Assembly (NCBI GenBank): GCA_945903275.1
Contig: CAMDNW010000010.1
Span: 1-64,000, forward strand
Source: Thermoflexus hugenholtzii JAD2
GTDB lineage: Bacteria; Chloroflexota; Dehalococcoidia; UBA2979
Length of the DNA stretch: 64,000 nucleotides
Direction of reading: 5' to 3'
Made by a program: the position numbers and the translations under genes. Positions 5,668 through 64,000 of this stretch are shown here, one piece after another. The notes below the pieces were generated by a model that did not search any database, was not told the origin of the DNA, and saw only the letters and a program-made list of their open reading frames with translations. Every line of letters begins with the position of its first letter. Position 1 is the stretch's first letter.

Positions 5668-5712
5668 GCTCCCTCCTCTCCTGACCTCAGGAGAGGGGCC
5701 GGTGGGTGAGGT
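5668..5712. repeat. GC-rich palindromic element, copy B
   Basis: CCTCTCCTGA / CCTCAGGAGAGG arms followed by GGTGGGTGAGG, just upstream of the next gene's ATG (5723). Same design as the other copies: hairpin plus a GGTGAG-like tail. Confidence 0.6.
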
Positions 5713-6472: not shown

Positions 6473-6479
6473 TCCCTCG

Positions 6480-6520
6480 CCTCTCACTCCCCCCTCTCCC
6501 CGAGAGGGGGGAGTGAGAGG
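6480..6520. terminator. Perfect 19-bp hairpin (element copy C)
   Basis: Arms 6480-6498 and 6502-6520 are perfectly complementary with a CCC loop, 8 bp after the stop of the TIM-barrel gene. The arm sequence matches the palindromic element family (CTCACTCCCCCCTCTC). It lacks a U-tract, so termination is plausible but not certain. Confidence 0.6.
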
Positions 6521-6629
6521 CTCACTTCACATAAAAACTCCTCGCTTGACCACCTCTCCTCCCCATACCTATCATTTAGATGCTTCGAAGCGACCATCCG
6601 CCCCCTCAAAGGACGGAAAGGCCACGCTC

Positions 6630-7488: not shown

Positions 7489-7791
7489 CTACAGGTGCAT
7501 TCCATCGGCTGTGACACGAAACTCAAGAGTGACGGGCGTCATGTCTACGTGATGAATTGTCATCGGGCCGTGATCGCTGGGGATCGATACCTGAATGTCA
7601 TCTGGCCCCACGTCTGTTACATCATTGAACTGAACGTGAAACATCTCCATCAACAAGAAACCACCGGGATTCATCGCTTGCACACCATGCCAACCGGAGT
7701 AGACCGCGAACGGTAGGAGGGGTGCACTCGGCGTTGAGGGGGGCGACGGATTCACGGTACGTAAAAAGGCTTCGACATCCTCAGCGGTCAC
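7489..7791 (-). CDS. Hypothetical protein starting inside a palindrome
   Basis: 100 residues from a GTG at 7791. The middle has a plausible globular composition (GFLLMEMFHVQFNDVTDVGP). No signal peptide, TM segment or known motif. Its start lies in the left arm of the 37-bp palindrome. Could be spurious; no homologue is recognised. Confidence 0.35.
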   Translation of the reverse strand: MTAEDVEAFLRTVNPSPPSTPSAPLLPFAVYSGWHGVQAMNPGGFLLMEMFHVQFNDVTDVGPDDIQVSIPSDHGPMTIHHVDMTPVTLEFRVTADGMHL

Positions 7792-8589: not shown

Positions 8590-8829
8590 ATGCTCAACCT
8601 CACCGGCATCACCCAACAACCCGTCGCACCGCTCACAGACGAACAAGTCGCCCGCCTCCAAACCATCCAAACCACCCCCGGCAAACCCGGCCTCTTCGTC
8701 ATCACCGGCATCGACGGCCAGACCACCGGCGACCACACCGGCAGCAACGCACAATTCATGGCCGCCGCCGCCGCCCTCCACCATTCCCCCTCACGCCCTC
8801 CTTCGCCCCCTTGGCGAAGGAGGGCGTGA
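8590..8829 (+). CDS. Small hypothetical protein, C-terminus made of repeat element
   Basis: 79 residues from ATG 8590. Residues 1-66 look like a normal small protein (TDEQVARLQTIQ helix, GLFVITGIDGQ strand). The last 13 residues and the stop come from the palindromic element copy D (8789-8831), so the original C-terminus was probably replaced by insertion. Function unknown. Confidence 0.5.
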   Translation: MLNLTGITQQPVAPLTDEQVARLQTIQTTPGKPGLFVITGIDGQTTGDHTGSNAQFMAAAAALHHSPSRPPSPPWRRRA

Positions 8830-8831
8830 GG
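8789..8831. repeat. GC-rich palindromic element, copy D
   Basis: A perfect 19-bp stem (8789-8807 with 8813-8831) and a 5-nt loop, ending in GCGTGAGG. It overlaps the 3' end of the preceding small ORF and lies about 60 bp before rpmH, so it might also terminate that ORF's transcript. Confidence 0.85.
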
Positions 8832-9438: not shown

Positions 9439-9816
9439 ATGAAATCTATCTCCATCGCCCTCATCCGCCTCTACCAACAAGCCATCTCCCCCCACCTCGG
9501 GCCTGTCTGCCGCTACCAGCCTTCCTGCTCCAACTACGCCATCGAGGCCATCAACCGCTTCGGTGCCCTGCGCGGCGGCTGGTTCGCCGCCAAACGGCTC
9601 TCCCGCTGTCACCCCTGGCACGCCGGCGGCTACGATCCGGTGCCCGAGGCCACTGAACACCCTTCCCCAGATCTAATCTCAACTAGCATCCGCATATACA
9701 ATTTGTTTCACGTGAAACAAATTGCTAAGGCTGACAGCAGTTACGAGGCCCAAAGGCGCCTCACGATCGCCGATTCCGCCCCGCAGACCTCCTCCCACCA
9801 CCCGATCGCCCGATGA
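9439..9816 (+). CDS. yidD: YidD membrane protein insertion efficiency factor, extended
   Basis: The core (residues 1-70) is typical of Yid[36 protein letters not shown] and GGYDPVP. It assists YidC-dependent insertion at the inner membrane. Family members usually end near here, but this frame runs 55 residues further, straight through the parS1 site (peptide [12 protein letters not shown]), and stops at TGA 9814-9816 overlapping the next ATG. The tail is probably functionless or affected by the parS duplication. Confidence 0.9.
9688..9743. repeat. Direct repeat 1 containing parS
   Basis: A 56-bp block matching 9888-9943 at about 51 positions, offset exactly 200 bp. It carries the 16-bp parS plus the downstream CAAATTGCTAAGGCTGA sequence. 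Confidence 0.9.
9704..9719. promoter_or_regulatory. parS site 1 (perfect)
   Basis: TGTTTCACGTGAAACA, identical to the conserved bacterial chromosomal parS palindrome bound by ParB. It lies inside the extended yidD frame, 4.2 kb from parB. Confidence 0.97.
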
Positions 9817-11108
9817 TCGAGACGAAAGGCGCCCCCCAACTGCCCTCCACATTCCCAAACCACCTGAACCAGCCCGTTTCAGATATCATTCGCTTATACA
9901 GATTGTTTCACGTGAAACAAATTGCTAAGGCTGAGAGCAGTTGTGCGCCGCGCCGAACCCACAGAGCCACCATCCTTCCGCTTGTACTGGGCGCATTCCT
10001 CCTCCTTGGTACCGCCTGCGCACCCGTCGAGGCTGCTGCGGGCTGGGGTGCCCCCATCGCCACCGGCGATCTCATACTCACCAGCAACAGTCAGGGCAAA
10101 GTCACCGCCCTCCGCACCGCTAACGACGCCCTGCCCGCCGTCGCCTGGACCTACCCACCTCCCAGCGAGTCCGAAAAGCCCTGGTACCAGCGCCTCTTCT
10201 CTGGCCGCAGTGACGAGGCCGCCCTCCAGACCATCTACGCCGCCCCGATCGTCGGGCGCGCCGGCCAACAGCAGCGCATCTATCTCGCGGGCTACTCCGG
10301 CGTCGTCTTGGCCATCGATCCCACCACCGGCCGCCGCATCGACGGCTGGCCCAGCGTGAACGCCGGGAGCCGCATCATCGCCACCCCCGCCTTCGCCGAT
10401 GGCCGCCTCTACATCGCCACCCAGGAAGGCACCGTCCGCAGCATCGATGCGGCCACTGGAGCACTCTCCCAGCCGTTCCTCAGCCTCGGCACCCGCATCT
10501 GGTCCGCCCCGGTCATCGACCGAGGCACTCTCTACATCGCCGCCTTCGATCACCACGTCCGCGCCCTCGATCCCCTCACCGGCGCGGTTCGCTGGCAGCA
10601 GGACATCGGCGGCGCGGTCGCCGGTGACCTCGCCTTTACAGGCGATCTGATGCTCGTGCCCACCCTCCAGAGCCGCCTCGTCGCCCTCGACACCACCGCC
10701 CGCGGCGCCGAACGCTGGGCCTTCACTGGCGACAACTGGTTCTGGGCGCGCCCACTCGTCTCCGGTGACACCGTCTTCGCCGTCTCCTCCGTCGGCACCG
10801 TCTACGCGCTCGATGTTGCCACCGGCCGCGAGCGCTGGAACACCCCTGTCAAAGCGGGCGAGGTACACGCAGCCCCGGTCATCGTCGGCGGTACGCTTGT
10901 CGTCGCCACCCGCAACGGCGTCCTTGCCGGACTCGACCCCACCACCGGCGCCGAACGCTGGCGCAAGACGGTCGAAGATGCCCGCTTCCTCGCCAACCCG
11001 CTGGTGGTAGAATCAGCCATCCTATACGTCGCTGAGAATGGTGACGTGCATCGTGTTCGCCCTCAGGATAAGGGCACTACAGAACGTATGTTCTCACCTG
11101 ACAACTAA
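9813..11108 (+). CDS. PQQ-like beta-propeller lipoprotein (BamB-like)
   Basis: A secreted propeller: repeated blade motifs with GxxxALDxxTGxxRW ([37 protein letters not shown]) through about residues 100-420. A lipoprotein signal with lipobox LGTAC is at about residues 67-71. ATG 9813 overlaps the yidD stop (ATGA) but leaves a long segment before the signal. GTG 9912, inside parS2, would give a normal signal peptide beginning MKQIAKAE. The place between yidD and yidC suggests a helper in envelope protein insertion, by analogy with BamB; this is inference. Confidence 0.8.
9888..9943. repeat. Direct repeat 2 containing parS
   Basis: Second copy of the 56-bp block (five mismatches to 9688-9743), lying in the 5' region of the propeller gene. 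Confidence 0.9.
9904..9919. promoter_or_regulatory. parS site 2 (perfect)
   Basis: A second exact TGTTTCACGTGAAACA, 200 bp after the first. A GTG candidate start of the propeller gene (9912) lies at its centre, so ParB binding may affect its translation or transcription start region. Confidence 0.97.
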
Positions 11109-47856: not shown

Positions 47857-47891
47857 CCCGTTCGTGGCGAGCCTGTCGAACCACGAACGGG
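47857..47891. repeat. Inverted repeat CCCGTTCGTGG...CCACGAACGGG
   Basis: Perfect 11-bp arms (47857-47867, 47881-47891) around CGAGCCTGTCGAA. This resembles the CGTTCGTGG/CCTGTCGAA element widespread in bacterial genomes. It lies between the thioesterase and yajQ. Confidence 0.9.
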
Positions 47892-58758: not shown

Positions 58759-58783
58759 GAGATACTCCCCAACAATGCTTTCC

Positions 58784-58825
58784 TGCCCCTCTCCCGCTCG
58801 CGGGAGAGGGGCAGTGGTGAGGGCT
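58784..58825. repeat. GC-rich palindromic element, copy J
   Basis: Perfect 13-bp stem TGCCCCTCTCCCG / CGGGAGAGGGGCA with CTCG loop, then GTGGTGAGGG. It lies between the thiolase-like pair 2 gene and the truncated phosphoesterase, and probably ends the upstream transcript. Confidence 0.9.
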
Positions 58826-60963: not shown

Positions 60964-61524
60964 ATGAAACTCGGCCTCATCTCCGACACCCACATCCCCT
61001 CCATGGGCCCCACACCCCCGCCACAGGTCATCGAGGCCTTCCGGGGCGTCGATCTCATCCTCCACGCTGGCGACATCTACATCCACGACTGCATCGAATG
61101 GCTCGAACGCATCGCACCCGTCGAGGCCACCACCTCGTGGTTCCCCGGCCGCGGCGAAGGCGTCCCTCGCACCAGTGCCCCCATCACCGTCGAGGCCGCC
61201 GGCCGCACCATCGGCCTCGTCCACAAACTCGAACTCACCCCCCTCGGCGATGACGTCTGGCCTGGCGCGATCGCCCACGGCTACCCACCCCACGCATCCA
61301 TCCCCAGCGAACTGTCAGAAATCTTCGGCAAGCCCGTGGACATCGTCGTCTTCGGCTACACCCACGAAGCCATGATCGAGACTCACCAAGGCATCCTCTT
61401 CATCAACCCTGGCAGCCCCACCATGGTCAAGCAGACACGCACTCTCGGCACCGTCGCCACCCTGAACCTCACCGCCCCCACTCCCCAAGCGCGCATCATC
61501 TCTCTGACTGATATCGAGTCCTGA
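60964..61524 (+). CDS. MJ0936-type metallophosphoesterase
   Basis: 186 residues from ATG 60964. Motifs: SDTHIPSMG (I), LILHAGDIY (II), Glu/Asp region TTSWFPGRGEG, HKLE, FGYTHEAMIE (His pair) and LFINPGSPT (last). YfcE/MJ0936 enzymes are Mn-dependent phosphodiesterases with broad in vitro substrates. The HNMD step (usually GNCD) reads WFPGRG here, so one metal ligand may differ. A truncated relative lies at 58537. Confidence 0.9.
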   Translation: MKLGLISDTHIPSMGPTPPPQVIEAFRGVDLILHAGDIYIHDCIEWLERIAPVEATTSWFPGRGEGVPRTSAPITVEAAGRTIGLVHKLELTPLGDDVWPGAIAHGYPPHASIPSELSEIFGKPVDIVVFGYTHEAMIETHQGILFINPGSPTMVKQTRTLGTVATLNLTAPTPQARIISLTDIES

Positions 61525-61689
61525 GCGGCAGTGCCGGAGAGCGATCCGCGCGCTCATCTAGGTAGATATACATATACAATCCGTCCGTGTTGCACCGCGC
61601 GTCACGCGCAATGTGATACGCGTCCTGATCGAGTAGCGCACTGCCTGTCTGGGTGAGGTCACGATGGCGCGCACCTAGATGGCTGTAAC

Positions 61690-61863
61690 GTGCGCAACAC
61701 CATCATCGTTCTCGTCTCCGCCGTAGCGTTTTTCCTCGGCGCGTGGCGGGCGTTGCTCCTAGCCAGCGGCGCCATCGGTCGCGAGCGGCCCATCTGACTC
61801 GCACTCGCACTCGTCGCCGGCGGAGTGGCGCGCGCCGTCGTCGGCGTACGCATCGCCCATTGA
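61690..61863 (+). pseudogene. Small membrane protein with nonsense codon
   Basis: GTG 61690: RNTIIVLVSAVAFFLGAWRA, then SGAIGRERPI, a TGA (61795), then LALALVAGGVARAVVGVRIA to TGA 61861. Both halves are hydrophobic, as expected for a two-TM peptide. Family unknown. Confidence 0.4.
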
Positions 61864-61899
61864 GGCAGATACGGCAGAGATCACAACGATGTCCAGCAC

Positions 61900-61932
61900 A
61901 AGGCGAGGCTCCCACTGAGGCCTCGCCTTTTT
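61900..61932 (+). terminator. Intrinsic terminator with T-tract
   Basis: AGGCGAGGC (61901-61909), 10-nt loop, GCCTCGCCT (61920-61928), then TTTTT to 61932: a standard rho-independent terminator, the clearest in the window. It may end a transcript from the phosphoesterase region. TTTTGGTTCAGA repeats (61929-61940 and 61949-61960) follow. Confidence 0.85.
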
Positions 61933-62135
61933 GGTTCAGAACCAGGACTTTTGGTTCAGATGCCACCCGCTCGCCCCTTTTGGTGCAAAGCCCGCGACCT
62001 CACCTGATTGAGTAAGGGCATATTTGTTCTACTAAAACCGACTGCAAACGGCCTCCCGCTCGCGCGCGGCAAAGCGTGACGCCACGCCCCCCACCGCGTA
62101 GCCTGTGCCCATGCACACGCACGCCGCCGAGGGTT
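61933..62135. other. Intergenic with short direct repeats
   Basis: Two copies of TTTTGGTTCAGA, 20 bp apart, and a weaker third (TTTTGGTGCA at 61978). No gene is seen. Confidence 0.5.
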
Positions 62136-62204
62136 CTATTCACCTCTCCCGTCCTAGGGAGAGGTGCCTTCCGGCCGCAGGCCTAGGAAACGCAGGGTGA
62201 GGTA
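62136..62204. repeat. GC-rich element, copy L, holding rimO start
   Basis: ACCTCTCCCGTCCTAGGGAGAGGT hairpin, GCCTTCCGGCCGCAGGCC hairpin, then GCAGGGTGAGGTAC. Its terminal GGGTGAGG contains GTG 62197, the best rimO start, as the family tail. Confidence 0.8.
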
Positions 62205-63564
62205 CCACCTCACCACCCTCGGCTGCGCCAAAAACACCGTCGACTCCATCCGCTTGGAGCGCACCCTCCGCAACCTCCGCCACACCCCCGTCACCACCCC
62301 AGACCTCGCTGATCTCATCCTCGTCAACACCTGCGGCTTCATAGACGCCGCCAAAGACGAATCCATCCAAACCGTCAAAACCCTCGAAAGCGCCCGCCGC
62401 CCCAACCAACAGCTCTACGTCATCGGCTGCATGACTCAGATCGCCGCAACCGAAGTCCGCACCGCCGTCCCCAACATCACCGCCACCTACGGCGCCGAAG
62501 CCTGGGAGCAAATCGCCGCCGACCTCGGCCCCGCCTCCGACACCTACGACATCCCCCAACCTTCCCCCTCCCCCCTCGAGGGGGAAGGTTGGGGTGAGAG
62601 GTCTTCGAGCGCCTACCTCAAAATCTCAGACGGCTGCGACCGTCCCTGCACCTTCTGCATCATCCCCACCATCAAAGGCCGCATGCACTCCGACACCACA
62701 GAACGCCTCATCAACGAAGCCCGCTGGCTCGCCGCCTCCGGCGTCAAAGAACTCGTCCTCGTCGCCCAAGACTCCACCGCCTACGGCGAAGATGCCGGCC
62801 AACGAGATGGCCTCGCCACCTTCCTCGAACGCCTCTCGGAAGCCGTCCCGCACGTACCTTGGATCCGCCTCATGTACGCCTACCCCGGCCGCGTCACCCC
62901 CCGCCTCGCCCATGCCATGGCCGCCCTCCCCAACATCGTCCCCTACATGGACATGCCCCTCCAGCATGGCTCCGACGCCGTCCTCCACCGCATGAAGCGT
63001 CCCAGCCTCCGCGTCGCCCGCCAGTCCATCCAGCACGTCCGGGACGCCATGCCGGACATCGCCCTCCGCACCACCTTCATCGTCGGCTACCCCGGCGAAA
63101 CCGAACGCGAATTCCAGGAACTCCTGGACTTCGTCCAGGAACAACGCTTCCACCACATCGGCGCCTTCACCTACTCCCCTCAACCCGGCACCCCAGCCGC
63201 CCAACTCCCCCAACTGACCGAAAAAACCAAACAGCGCCGCTACGCCCGCCTCATGGAACTCGCCCAAGCCATCTCCCTCGAACATAACCGCGCACTCGTC
63301 GGCCAAGAACTCGACGTCCTCATCGAATCCGAAACCCCCACTCAGGGCGAACACGGCACCGGCGCCGTCTCCGTCGGCCGCACCCACCGTGACGCCCCCG
63401 AGGTAGACGGCCTCGCCCTCGTCAAGGGCGAATACCCGGCCGGAACCATGATCCGCGTCCGCGTCGACGGCGCCCTCCACTACGACCTCCTCTGCACCCC
63501 CGTCGGTATCTCCTCCGTCCCACAGGCCCTCGCCATCCCCCTCCACCCCATAACACGACCCTAA
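62197..63564 (+). CDS. rimO: Ribosomal protein S12 methylthiotransferase
   Basis: 455 residues from GTG 62197 (MRYHLTTLGCAKNTVDS); GTG 62164 is possible but wholly inside an inserted repeat. N-terminal MTTase domain with Cys in LGCAKN, NTCGFID and IGCMTQ; radical-SAM cluster CDRPCTFC; partner PMDMPLQHGSDAVL; C-terminal TRAM. It methylthiolates Asp88 of S12. Between MTTase and radical-SAM domains, residues about 120-136 (PSPSPLEGEGWGERSS) come from element copy M, in frame. SD-like AGG lies just before the GTG. Confidence 0.96.
   Translation: MRYHLTTLGCAKNTVDSIRLERTLRNLRHTPVTTPDLADLILVNTCGFIDAAKDESIQTVKTLESARRPNQQLYVIGCMTQIAATEVRTAVPNITATYGAEAWEQIAADLGPASDTYDIPQPSPSPLEGEGWGERSSSAYLKISDGCDRPCTFCIIPTIKGRMHSDTTERLINEARWLAASGVKELVLVAQDSTAYGEDAGQRDGLATFLERLSEAVPHVPWIRLMYAYPGRVTPRLAHAMAALPNIVPYMDMPLQHGSDAVLHRMKRPSLRVARQSIQHVRDAMPDIALRTTFIVGYPGETEREFQELLDFVQEQRFHHIGAFTYSPQPGTPAAQLPQLTEKTKQRRYARLMELAQAISLEHNRALVGQELDVLIESETPTQGEHGTGAVSVGRTHRDAPEVDGLALVKGEYPAGTMIRVRVDGALHYDLLCTPVGISSVPQALAIPLHPITRP
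62553..62602. repeat. GC-rich palindromic element, copy M, inside rimO
   Basis: Perfect 17-bp stem (62554-62570 with 62578-62594), 7-nt loop, then TGAGAGG. It is in frame within rimO, in the linker between the MTTase and radical-SAM domains. Confidence 0.95.
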
Positions 63565-63736
63565 ACCCGCCCATATCACGAACCCCACAAGGCCATCTCT
63601 ACCGTGCAAAATCTTTAACACCGATTTCACGTGAAAGTGCGCACAAGCACTTGTGGCATAGGCTGCGCTGCTCATACTTAATATTGAGGAGTGAGCAAAG
63701 GCGAGGCCGGGTTCACCTAAGGAAGGAATCGAGACC
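63565..63736. promoter_or_regulatory. Promoter region with degenerate parS-like site
   Basis: TTTCACGTGAAA at 63625-63636 keeps the central 12 bp of parS but not the outer bases. A possible promoter follows (TTGTGG ... TTAATATT, about 63650-63685) upstream of the small gene at 63737. Confidence 0.4.
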
Positions 63737-63859
63737 ATGACCAACGAGTTGGAGCGGTATTACAGTGGAATCGTCAGCGCCAAGCGCGCCGGCGGCCCCA
63801 CCATGGCTGAGGCGGCGAAGGACTTCGCCCGCGCAAATGCCACGATTTTCACGCGCTAG
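63737..63859 (+). CDS. Small helical protein, 40 residues
   Basis: ATG 63737 with GGAAGGAATC upstream: NELERYYSGIVSAKRAGGPT, then MAEAAKDFARANATIFTR. Helical composition, strong ribosome-binding site and a strong hairpin 42 bp later support a real gene. No family recognised. Confidence 0.5.
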   Translation: MTNELERYYSGIVSAKRAGGPTMAEAAKDFARANATIFTR

Positions 63860-63900
63860 GAGAGTCCCCCCTCTATCAACCTTGAGCGTGATGTCTTCCA

Positions 63901-63933
63901 GCGAGCGGCGCCCACCCCCCGGGCGCCGCTCGC
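63901..63933. terminator. Terminator-like 13-bp hairpin
   Basis: GCGAGCGGCGCCC, ACCCCCC loop, GGGCGCCGCTCGC, then ATTTCCT. It follows the small 63737 gene. Confidence 0.8.
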
Positions 63934-64000
63934 ATTTCCTCTCCTCATCCGGTAACCCCGAAGCAAGAAACAGGCAAGACACAGGCGGAGCCATCGCTAC

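Follow-up and report, generated by a model that had tools for sequence, protein, structure and literature searches.

A perfect palindrome read in frame within the rimO gene of a Dehalococcoidia genome is most likely a copy of a triplex-motif (TM) interspersed repeat, a class that is widespread in bacterial genomes, usually between genes, and that we take to be the same as the older PIT and boxC elements. On this reading the repeat has become dispersed across the window's own family within the Dehalococcoidia (the window being the whole stretch of 64,000 nucleotides that was analysed), lies mostly between genes, and is near-neutral in the genes that it has entered. The copy in rimO is accompanied by further in-frame copies in recG and pheT of the same genome.

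The host gene encodes ribosomal protein S12 methylthiotransferase (rimO, 62197–63564, forward strand). Its GTG start at 62197 is the position used by relatives and gives a reading frame of 455 codons; the program-made open reading frame (ORF) starts at 62164 and continues uninterrupted for 466 codons. The protein scores above the cut-off of the RimO equivalog model TIGR01125 (408.7 bits against 357, covering model positions 3–431 of 432), matches the solved RimO structure of T. maritima (4jc0) over its full length, and has the radical-SAM cysteines (C147, C151, and C154); the nearest named records are from the Chloroflexi bins RH-chloro-G1 (75% identity) and ZH-chloro-G3 (74%). A protein other than RimO was rejected on the strength of the equivalog match, and a sequencing frame break because the frame runs uninterrupted through the repeat; the initial annotation, which had placed the element in frame in rimO, was thus correct on this point. 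The host genome (G000) is 1.75 Mb in size, and RimO searches place it in the Dehalococcoidia (Chloroflexota).

The element comprises a perfect 17-bp inverted repeat with a 7-nt loop (62554–62594, forward strand; arms CCCCAACCTTCCCCCTC and GAGGGGGAAGGTTGGGG) followed by an unpaired 3′ part, TGAGAGG (62595–62601, forward strand), which corresponds to the end of the TM "third strand" GGGTGAGG; the stem-loop plus TGAGAGG of the initial annotation is therefore present as described. The repeat codons read PQPSPSPLEGEGWGER (residues 120–135, counted from the GTG at 62197). In 12 Markov-shuffled windows the longest arms measured 9–12 bp and never exceeded 12, whereas arms in the real window reach 20; the hairpin is accordingly non-random, and a chance origin for its 17-bp arms was rejected. 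The DNA fold has a z-score of −5.7 and the corresponding mRNA hairpin is predicted at about −41 kcal/mol, so that an effect at the RNA level is possible. An AlphaFold prediction of RimO (from a 26-sequence alignment, mean pLDDT 88) falls below a pLDDT of 50 at residues 122–134, a stretch that in this model coincides almost exactly with the residues encoded by the repeat. A search of positions 61500–64000 against Rfam gave no match, and a text search of the literature for the repeat-encoded peptide found no paper.

The TM of Escherichia coli (TM_ECO; for example, CCCTCTCCCTTGAGGGAGAGGGTTAGGGTGAGGGT) is an intrastrand triplex motif, one that allows a third strand of purines to fold back onto the stem, and it has been described as always intergenic (Holder et al. 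2015, PMC4666352); the text of that report does not mention Chloroflexi. The repeats of the window's family pair a pyrimidine arm, CC(C/T)TC-N-CC, with a purine arm, GG-N-GAGG, across a short loop and carry GGGTG(A/G)GG a few bases further on. They thus keep the TM order of parts, including a second loop of 2–4 nt, and they show both second-loop subtypes of the E. coli TM as well as its inverted pairing. One pattern was used to count copies over 44 genomes of the family (the host, its congeners G001 and G002, and 41 further genomes), with the reversed pattern as a control; all genomes compared are metagenome bins. Counts ranged from 0 (in genera g5, g8, and g17) to 206 (in G007), against 0–7 for the control; the repeat is therefore multi-copy in the genome, at numbers above chance, and it is abundant in sister genera. 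Within the genus, 15 matches were counted in the host (about ten look real; the control gave 5), 47 in G002, and 2 in G001, contrasts that suggest recent bursts or losses of TM copies, with the proviso that G001 and G002 are incomplete bins. Positions were mapped in four TM-rich genomes; a MAFFT alignment of the copies gave poor register for stems as short as these. In TM-rich bins (contigs of G021) many contigs start or end less than about 60 bases from a TM copy; the assemblies seem to break at such copies, and the copy numbers may for this reason be underestimates.

The rimO element keeps this order of parts, with a longer loop than in the family and a tail changed to GGGGTGAGAGG. With up to three mismatches allowed, its right half (27 nt) gave a single match across the genome; against the TM copies of a sister genus (CCCTCGAGGGGGAGGG(C/T)TGGGGTGAG) it shows two differences, with 24 of 26 bases agreeing in order, and the opposite arm carries the stem change that matches these differences. 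By a simple count of triads (G*GC and A/T*AT), 6 of 9 are retained in rimO, compared with 9 of 9 in the pheT and recG copies and in the E. coli consensus, and on this count the rimO copy appears to be a decayed or altered member of the family.

Because the right half is matched only once in the 1.75-Mb genome, the view of the initial annotation that the sequence recurs through the window is true of the looser family and not of the exact sequence. Relatives in the window, all on the forward strand, are two clear ones, an intergenic TM copy at 58783–58822 (CTGCCCCTCTCCCGCTCGCGGGAGAGGGGCAGTGGTGAGG) and a copy upstream of an ORF at 5674–5711 (CCTCTCCTGACCTCAGGAGAGGGGCCGGTGGGTGAGG), and probably a second TM-like element with an extra internal hairpin in the rimO leader (62141–62202). 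The leader element has a GGGTGAGG that holds the GTG start codon of rimO, and the rimO leaders of relatives do not contain the element. The start codon also lies within a palindrome, GGTGAGGTaccACCTCACC (62195–62215), to which the leader repeat contributes its 3′ end and rimO its first codons, and the leader RNA is predicted to be strongly folded.

Several other repeats were observed in the window. Long perfect palindromes at 6479–6521 and 8789–8831 (arms of 20 and 19 bp, respectively) have CCTCAC/GTGAGG ends and are possibly symmetrical relatives of TM; the one at 6479 comes immediately after an ORF's stop codon and might serve as a terminator. At 9679–9942, next to an rpmH/rnpA-like region, repeated TTGTTTCACGTGAAACAA palindromes resemble parS sites in the vicinity of a replication origin. 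A second dispersed repeat, encoding peptides similar to RQAHHERG and FDRLTTSG, was seen beside TM copies elsewhere in the host genome (L129, at about 7640–7700, and L125, at about 2640); for this repeat a near inverted pair was found at 47858–47890 of the window, with no enrichment above chance in the window.

Comparison with relatives bears on how the repeat came to occupy the RimO linker. Between the DIP and AYL motifs the window encodes 18 codons (QPSPSPLEGEGWGERSSS); the two congeners likewise have linkers of 18 codons, whose sequences are unrelated (EPSMPSTSIPMLDLGMPS and QPLAASMSPLLMMPGAPS), and most other genera have 10–13 residues there (for example, QPAAAGLLATGPS in L004). The RimO proteins of the two congeners are 80% identical and closer to each other than either is to that of the window. 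The outer left arm of the hairpin, CCCCAACCT, corresponds to the native DIPQP codons (CCC CAG CCT in L004), and the stem is thus built partly from host codons. The repeat brings no extra length over the congeners, and the initial annotation's description of it as an insertion needs to be modified: a palindrome is indeed translated in frame within a linker that tolerates it, but it is not a clean addition, since both congeners have a linker of equal length with unrelated codons, an outcome that the annotation itself had named as counting against its reading. On this evidence the repeat appears either to have overwritten a linker that was already variable or to have been trimmed into it; the most parsimonious account has the repeat landing in or beside the linker, with loss of the old one.

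The same features could be explained by a G/C-rich palindrome that evolved locally in a Pro/Gly/Glu-rich linker and resembles the TM family through composition. The linker length shared with the congeners, the partly native stem, the single occurrence of the exact sequence in the genome, and the poor triplex potential (6/9) are all as expected of such a palindrome. A local origin is nevertheless improbable: the agreement with sister-genus TM copies extends in order over 24 of 26 bases, the arms are much longer than in shuffled sequence, and recG and pheT of the same genome bear unmistakable in-frame TMs.

In 524 kb of the host genome, chosen partly for holding matches, about 14 clear TMs were found, three of them in frame in the conserved genes rimO, recG, and pheT (identities assigned by NCBIfam). 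The recG copy reads LNSSPSLSAGEGVGGGDSGLRMLPVY and the pheT copy ISGTPPPPPSPLGGEGEESEVFTVRAPWW. The recG site is empty in relatives, with a compact loop in most of the 22 others aligned and a longer loop in G003; the pheT segment is missing from all 15 others aligned, the nearest of which (G004) reads VQVSGEGIEVRPPWW. In another genus, pheT of G061 has a TM of its own in this loop (SVGGSPPPQPSPAGGEGEIFSVRAPWW) that is lacking from pheT of G010, G024, G060, and G062 of the same genus. In RecG of G024, G061, and G062, TM-coded inserts that are tens of residues long lie between the motifs QHRFG and (S/T)ATPIPR; these are absent from RecG of G010 and G033, and G060 has a long non-TM insert there. 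TM-coded segments are also found in the N-terminal linker of RecG in G061 and G005 (two copies). Next to the TM-coded residues of the G062 recG insert (L291) is a short tandem repeat of SVPSA units, a minisatellite in a helicase gene.

Intergenic location, reported for E. coli and not strictly a defining property of TM, does not apply to the rimO, recG, and pheT copies. By the codon scores, such genic copies appear to be a minority and most copies intergenic: none of the 45 copies scored in congener G002 was genic, and just a handful of the 83 from other relatives were, by a scorer that misses some. A strict codon-score threshold missed pheT; the threshold was relaxed and the genes were then checked by alignment, and the in-frame counts are lower bounds. 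Genic copies were confirmed closely in the three genes named. Three others that were genic by score (L101, in the N-terminal extension of an acyl/acetyl-CoA synthetase-like ORF; L146; and L190) were left out of the count, as they either precede a likely start codon or are in a frame that is doubtful.

The best reading of these observations is that colonisation is near-neutral and that the in-frame copies in disordered loops are what purifying selection has left. TM copies would arise through some copying process, and most would land or survive between genes; those that break a reading frame would be removed by purifying selection, and those in disordered linkers or loops would survive. The few genic copies would owe their survival to a frame that is kept, a reading without a stop codon, and a disordered linker or loop as the site; peptides such as SPLxGEG, PTPTLPxGGG, and SPSLSAGEG are read from in-frame TMs without a stop, and the sites of these TMs are in variable loops. 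In RimO, the repeat would have displaced the earlier linker between the MTTase and radical-SAM domains with no lengthening relative to the congeners, and it is probably almost neutral for the protein. The initial annotation had proposed selection for in-frame copies; with most copies intergenic (0/45 genic in G002), removal of the others is the better description.

Retention for a function would take a different form: an mRNA hairpin or DNA triplex could tune translation or replication at rimO, recG, and pheT, or the encoded segment could be useful to the protein. Consistent with this, the same pheT loop is occupied in two genera and three recG sites in three genera, the rimO mRNA hairpin is predicted to be strong (−41 kcal/mol), and repetitive extragenic palindromes (REPs) elsewhere enter the same classes of genes, for DNA repair and tRNA synthetases (PMC3733652). 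However, most relatives lack the inserts, which differ in both sequence and length and occupy loops predicted or expected to be flexible; the RimO copy appears to have decayed from the triplex consensus; and as only three genes were looked at closely, the repeated use of recG and pheT may be due to ascertainment. We therefore regard such a function as unlikely. It is also unlikely that TM in these Chloroflexota is actively moving and repeatedly entering a few protein loops (the B5 loop of pheT in two genera and three sites of recG in three genera). If it is, repeated entry into the same loops would mean either that the copying mechanism prefers certain sites or that selection favours inserts in genes for translation and repair, and a class of repeat held to be intergenic would be a recurrent source of new protein segments.

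Among known systems, the E. coli TM is the closest in form, with a CCCTC(N)CCC arm, a loop, a GGG(N)GAGGG arm, and a 2–4-nt second loop of TT or CC type followed by GGGTGAGG; in both lineages the copies are dispersed, occur as inverted type-A/type-B pairs, and show no tie to known mobile elements. The Chloroflexota repeats differ from the intergenic E. coli TM in that some copies are in frame in conserved genes, and the rimO copy differs further in its longer loop and the loss of part of the triplex complementarity.

REPs tagged with GTAG or CGTC are likewise found in frame in genes for DNA repair and tRNA synthetases, and linkers and loops have been proposed as neutral sites for them (Di Nocera et al. 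2013, PMC3733652); the in-frame copies, whether single, paired, or grouped, are a point of likeness to TM. The sharp contrasts in copy number between congeners and the frequent inverted pairs would suit a REP or MITE moved by an IS200/RAYT-type transposase encoded in these genomes. Yet the listed TM copies have, by inspection, no GTAG or CGTC tag at the hairpin end, and a search for RAYT genes (Y1_Tnp, PF01797) found none in the host or the TM-rich genomes; the domain occurs in 4 of the 44 family genomes, none of them TM-rich, and 5 of 14 control genomes gave a match. TM belongs to another repeat superfamily, and movement by such a transposase is highly unlikely. Nor do the copies match MITEs, which are 70–300 bp long with terminal inverted repeats and a target-site duplication: TMs are single hairpins of about 36–48 bp, and no target-site duplication was seen at rimO by inspection.

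Rickettsia palindromic elements (RPEs), to which the initial annotation had compared the rimO hairpin, are palindromes read in frame in conserved protein genes (summarised in PMC3733652). The comparison is apt in that rimO, recG, and pheT each contain such a palindrome in an unrelated lineage, the last two independently of rimO; it fails in that the element is of the G/C-rich TM class, is shorter than RPEs, and in rimO gives no net gain in length over congeners. Lineage and base composition argue against placing the rimO element in the RPE sequence families. In-frame palindromes in proteins are thus already known for RPEs and for GTAG/CGTC REPs; in-frame TMs have, as far as a limited literature search goes, not been described before. 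Ordinary repeats of this kind add floppy segments to conserved proteins, and the many family genomes in which a given loop is either occupied or empty allow direct counts of how often, in which frame, and with what site bias insertion occurs. The copies in RecG, PheT, and RimO indicate that the TM class, too, can donate protein sequence, and that it does so without a REP transposase and in a phylum only distantly related to Rickettsia.
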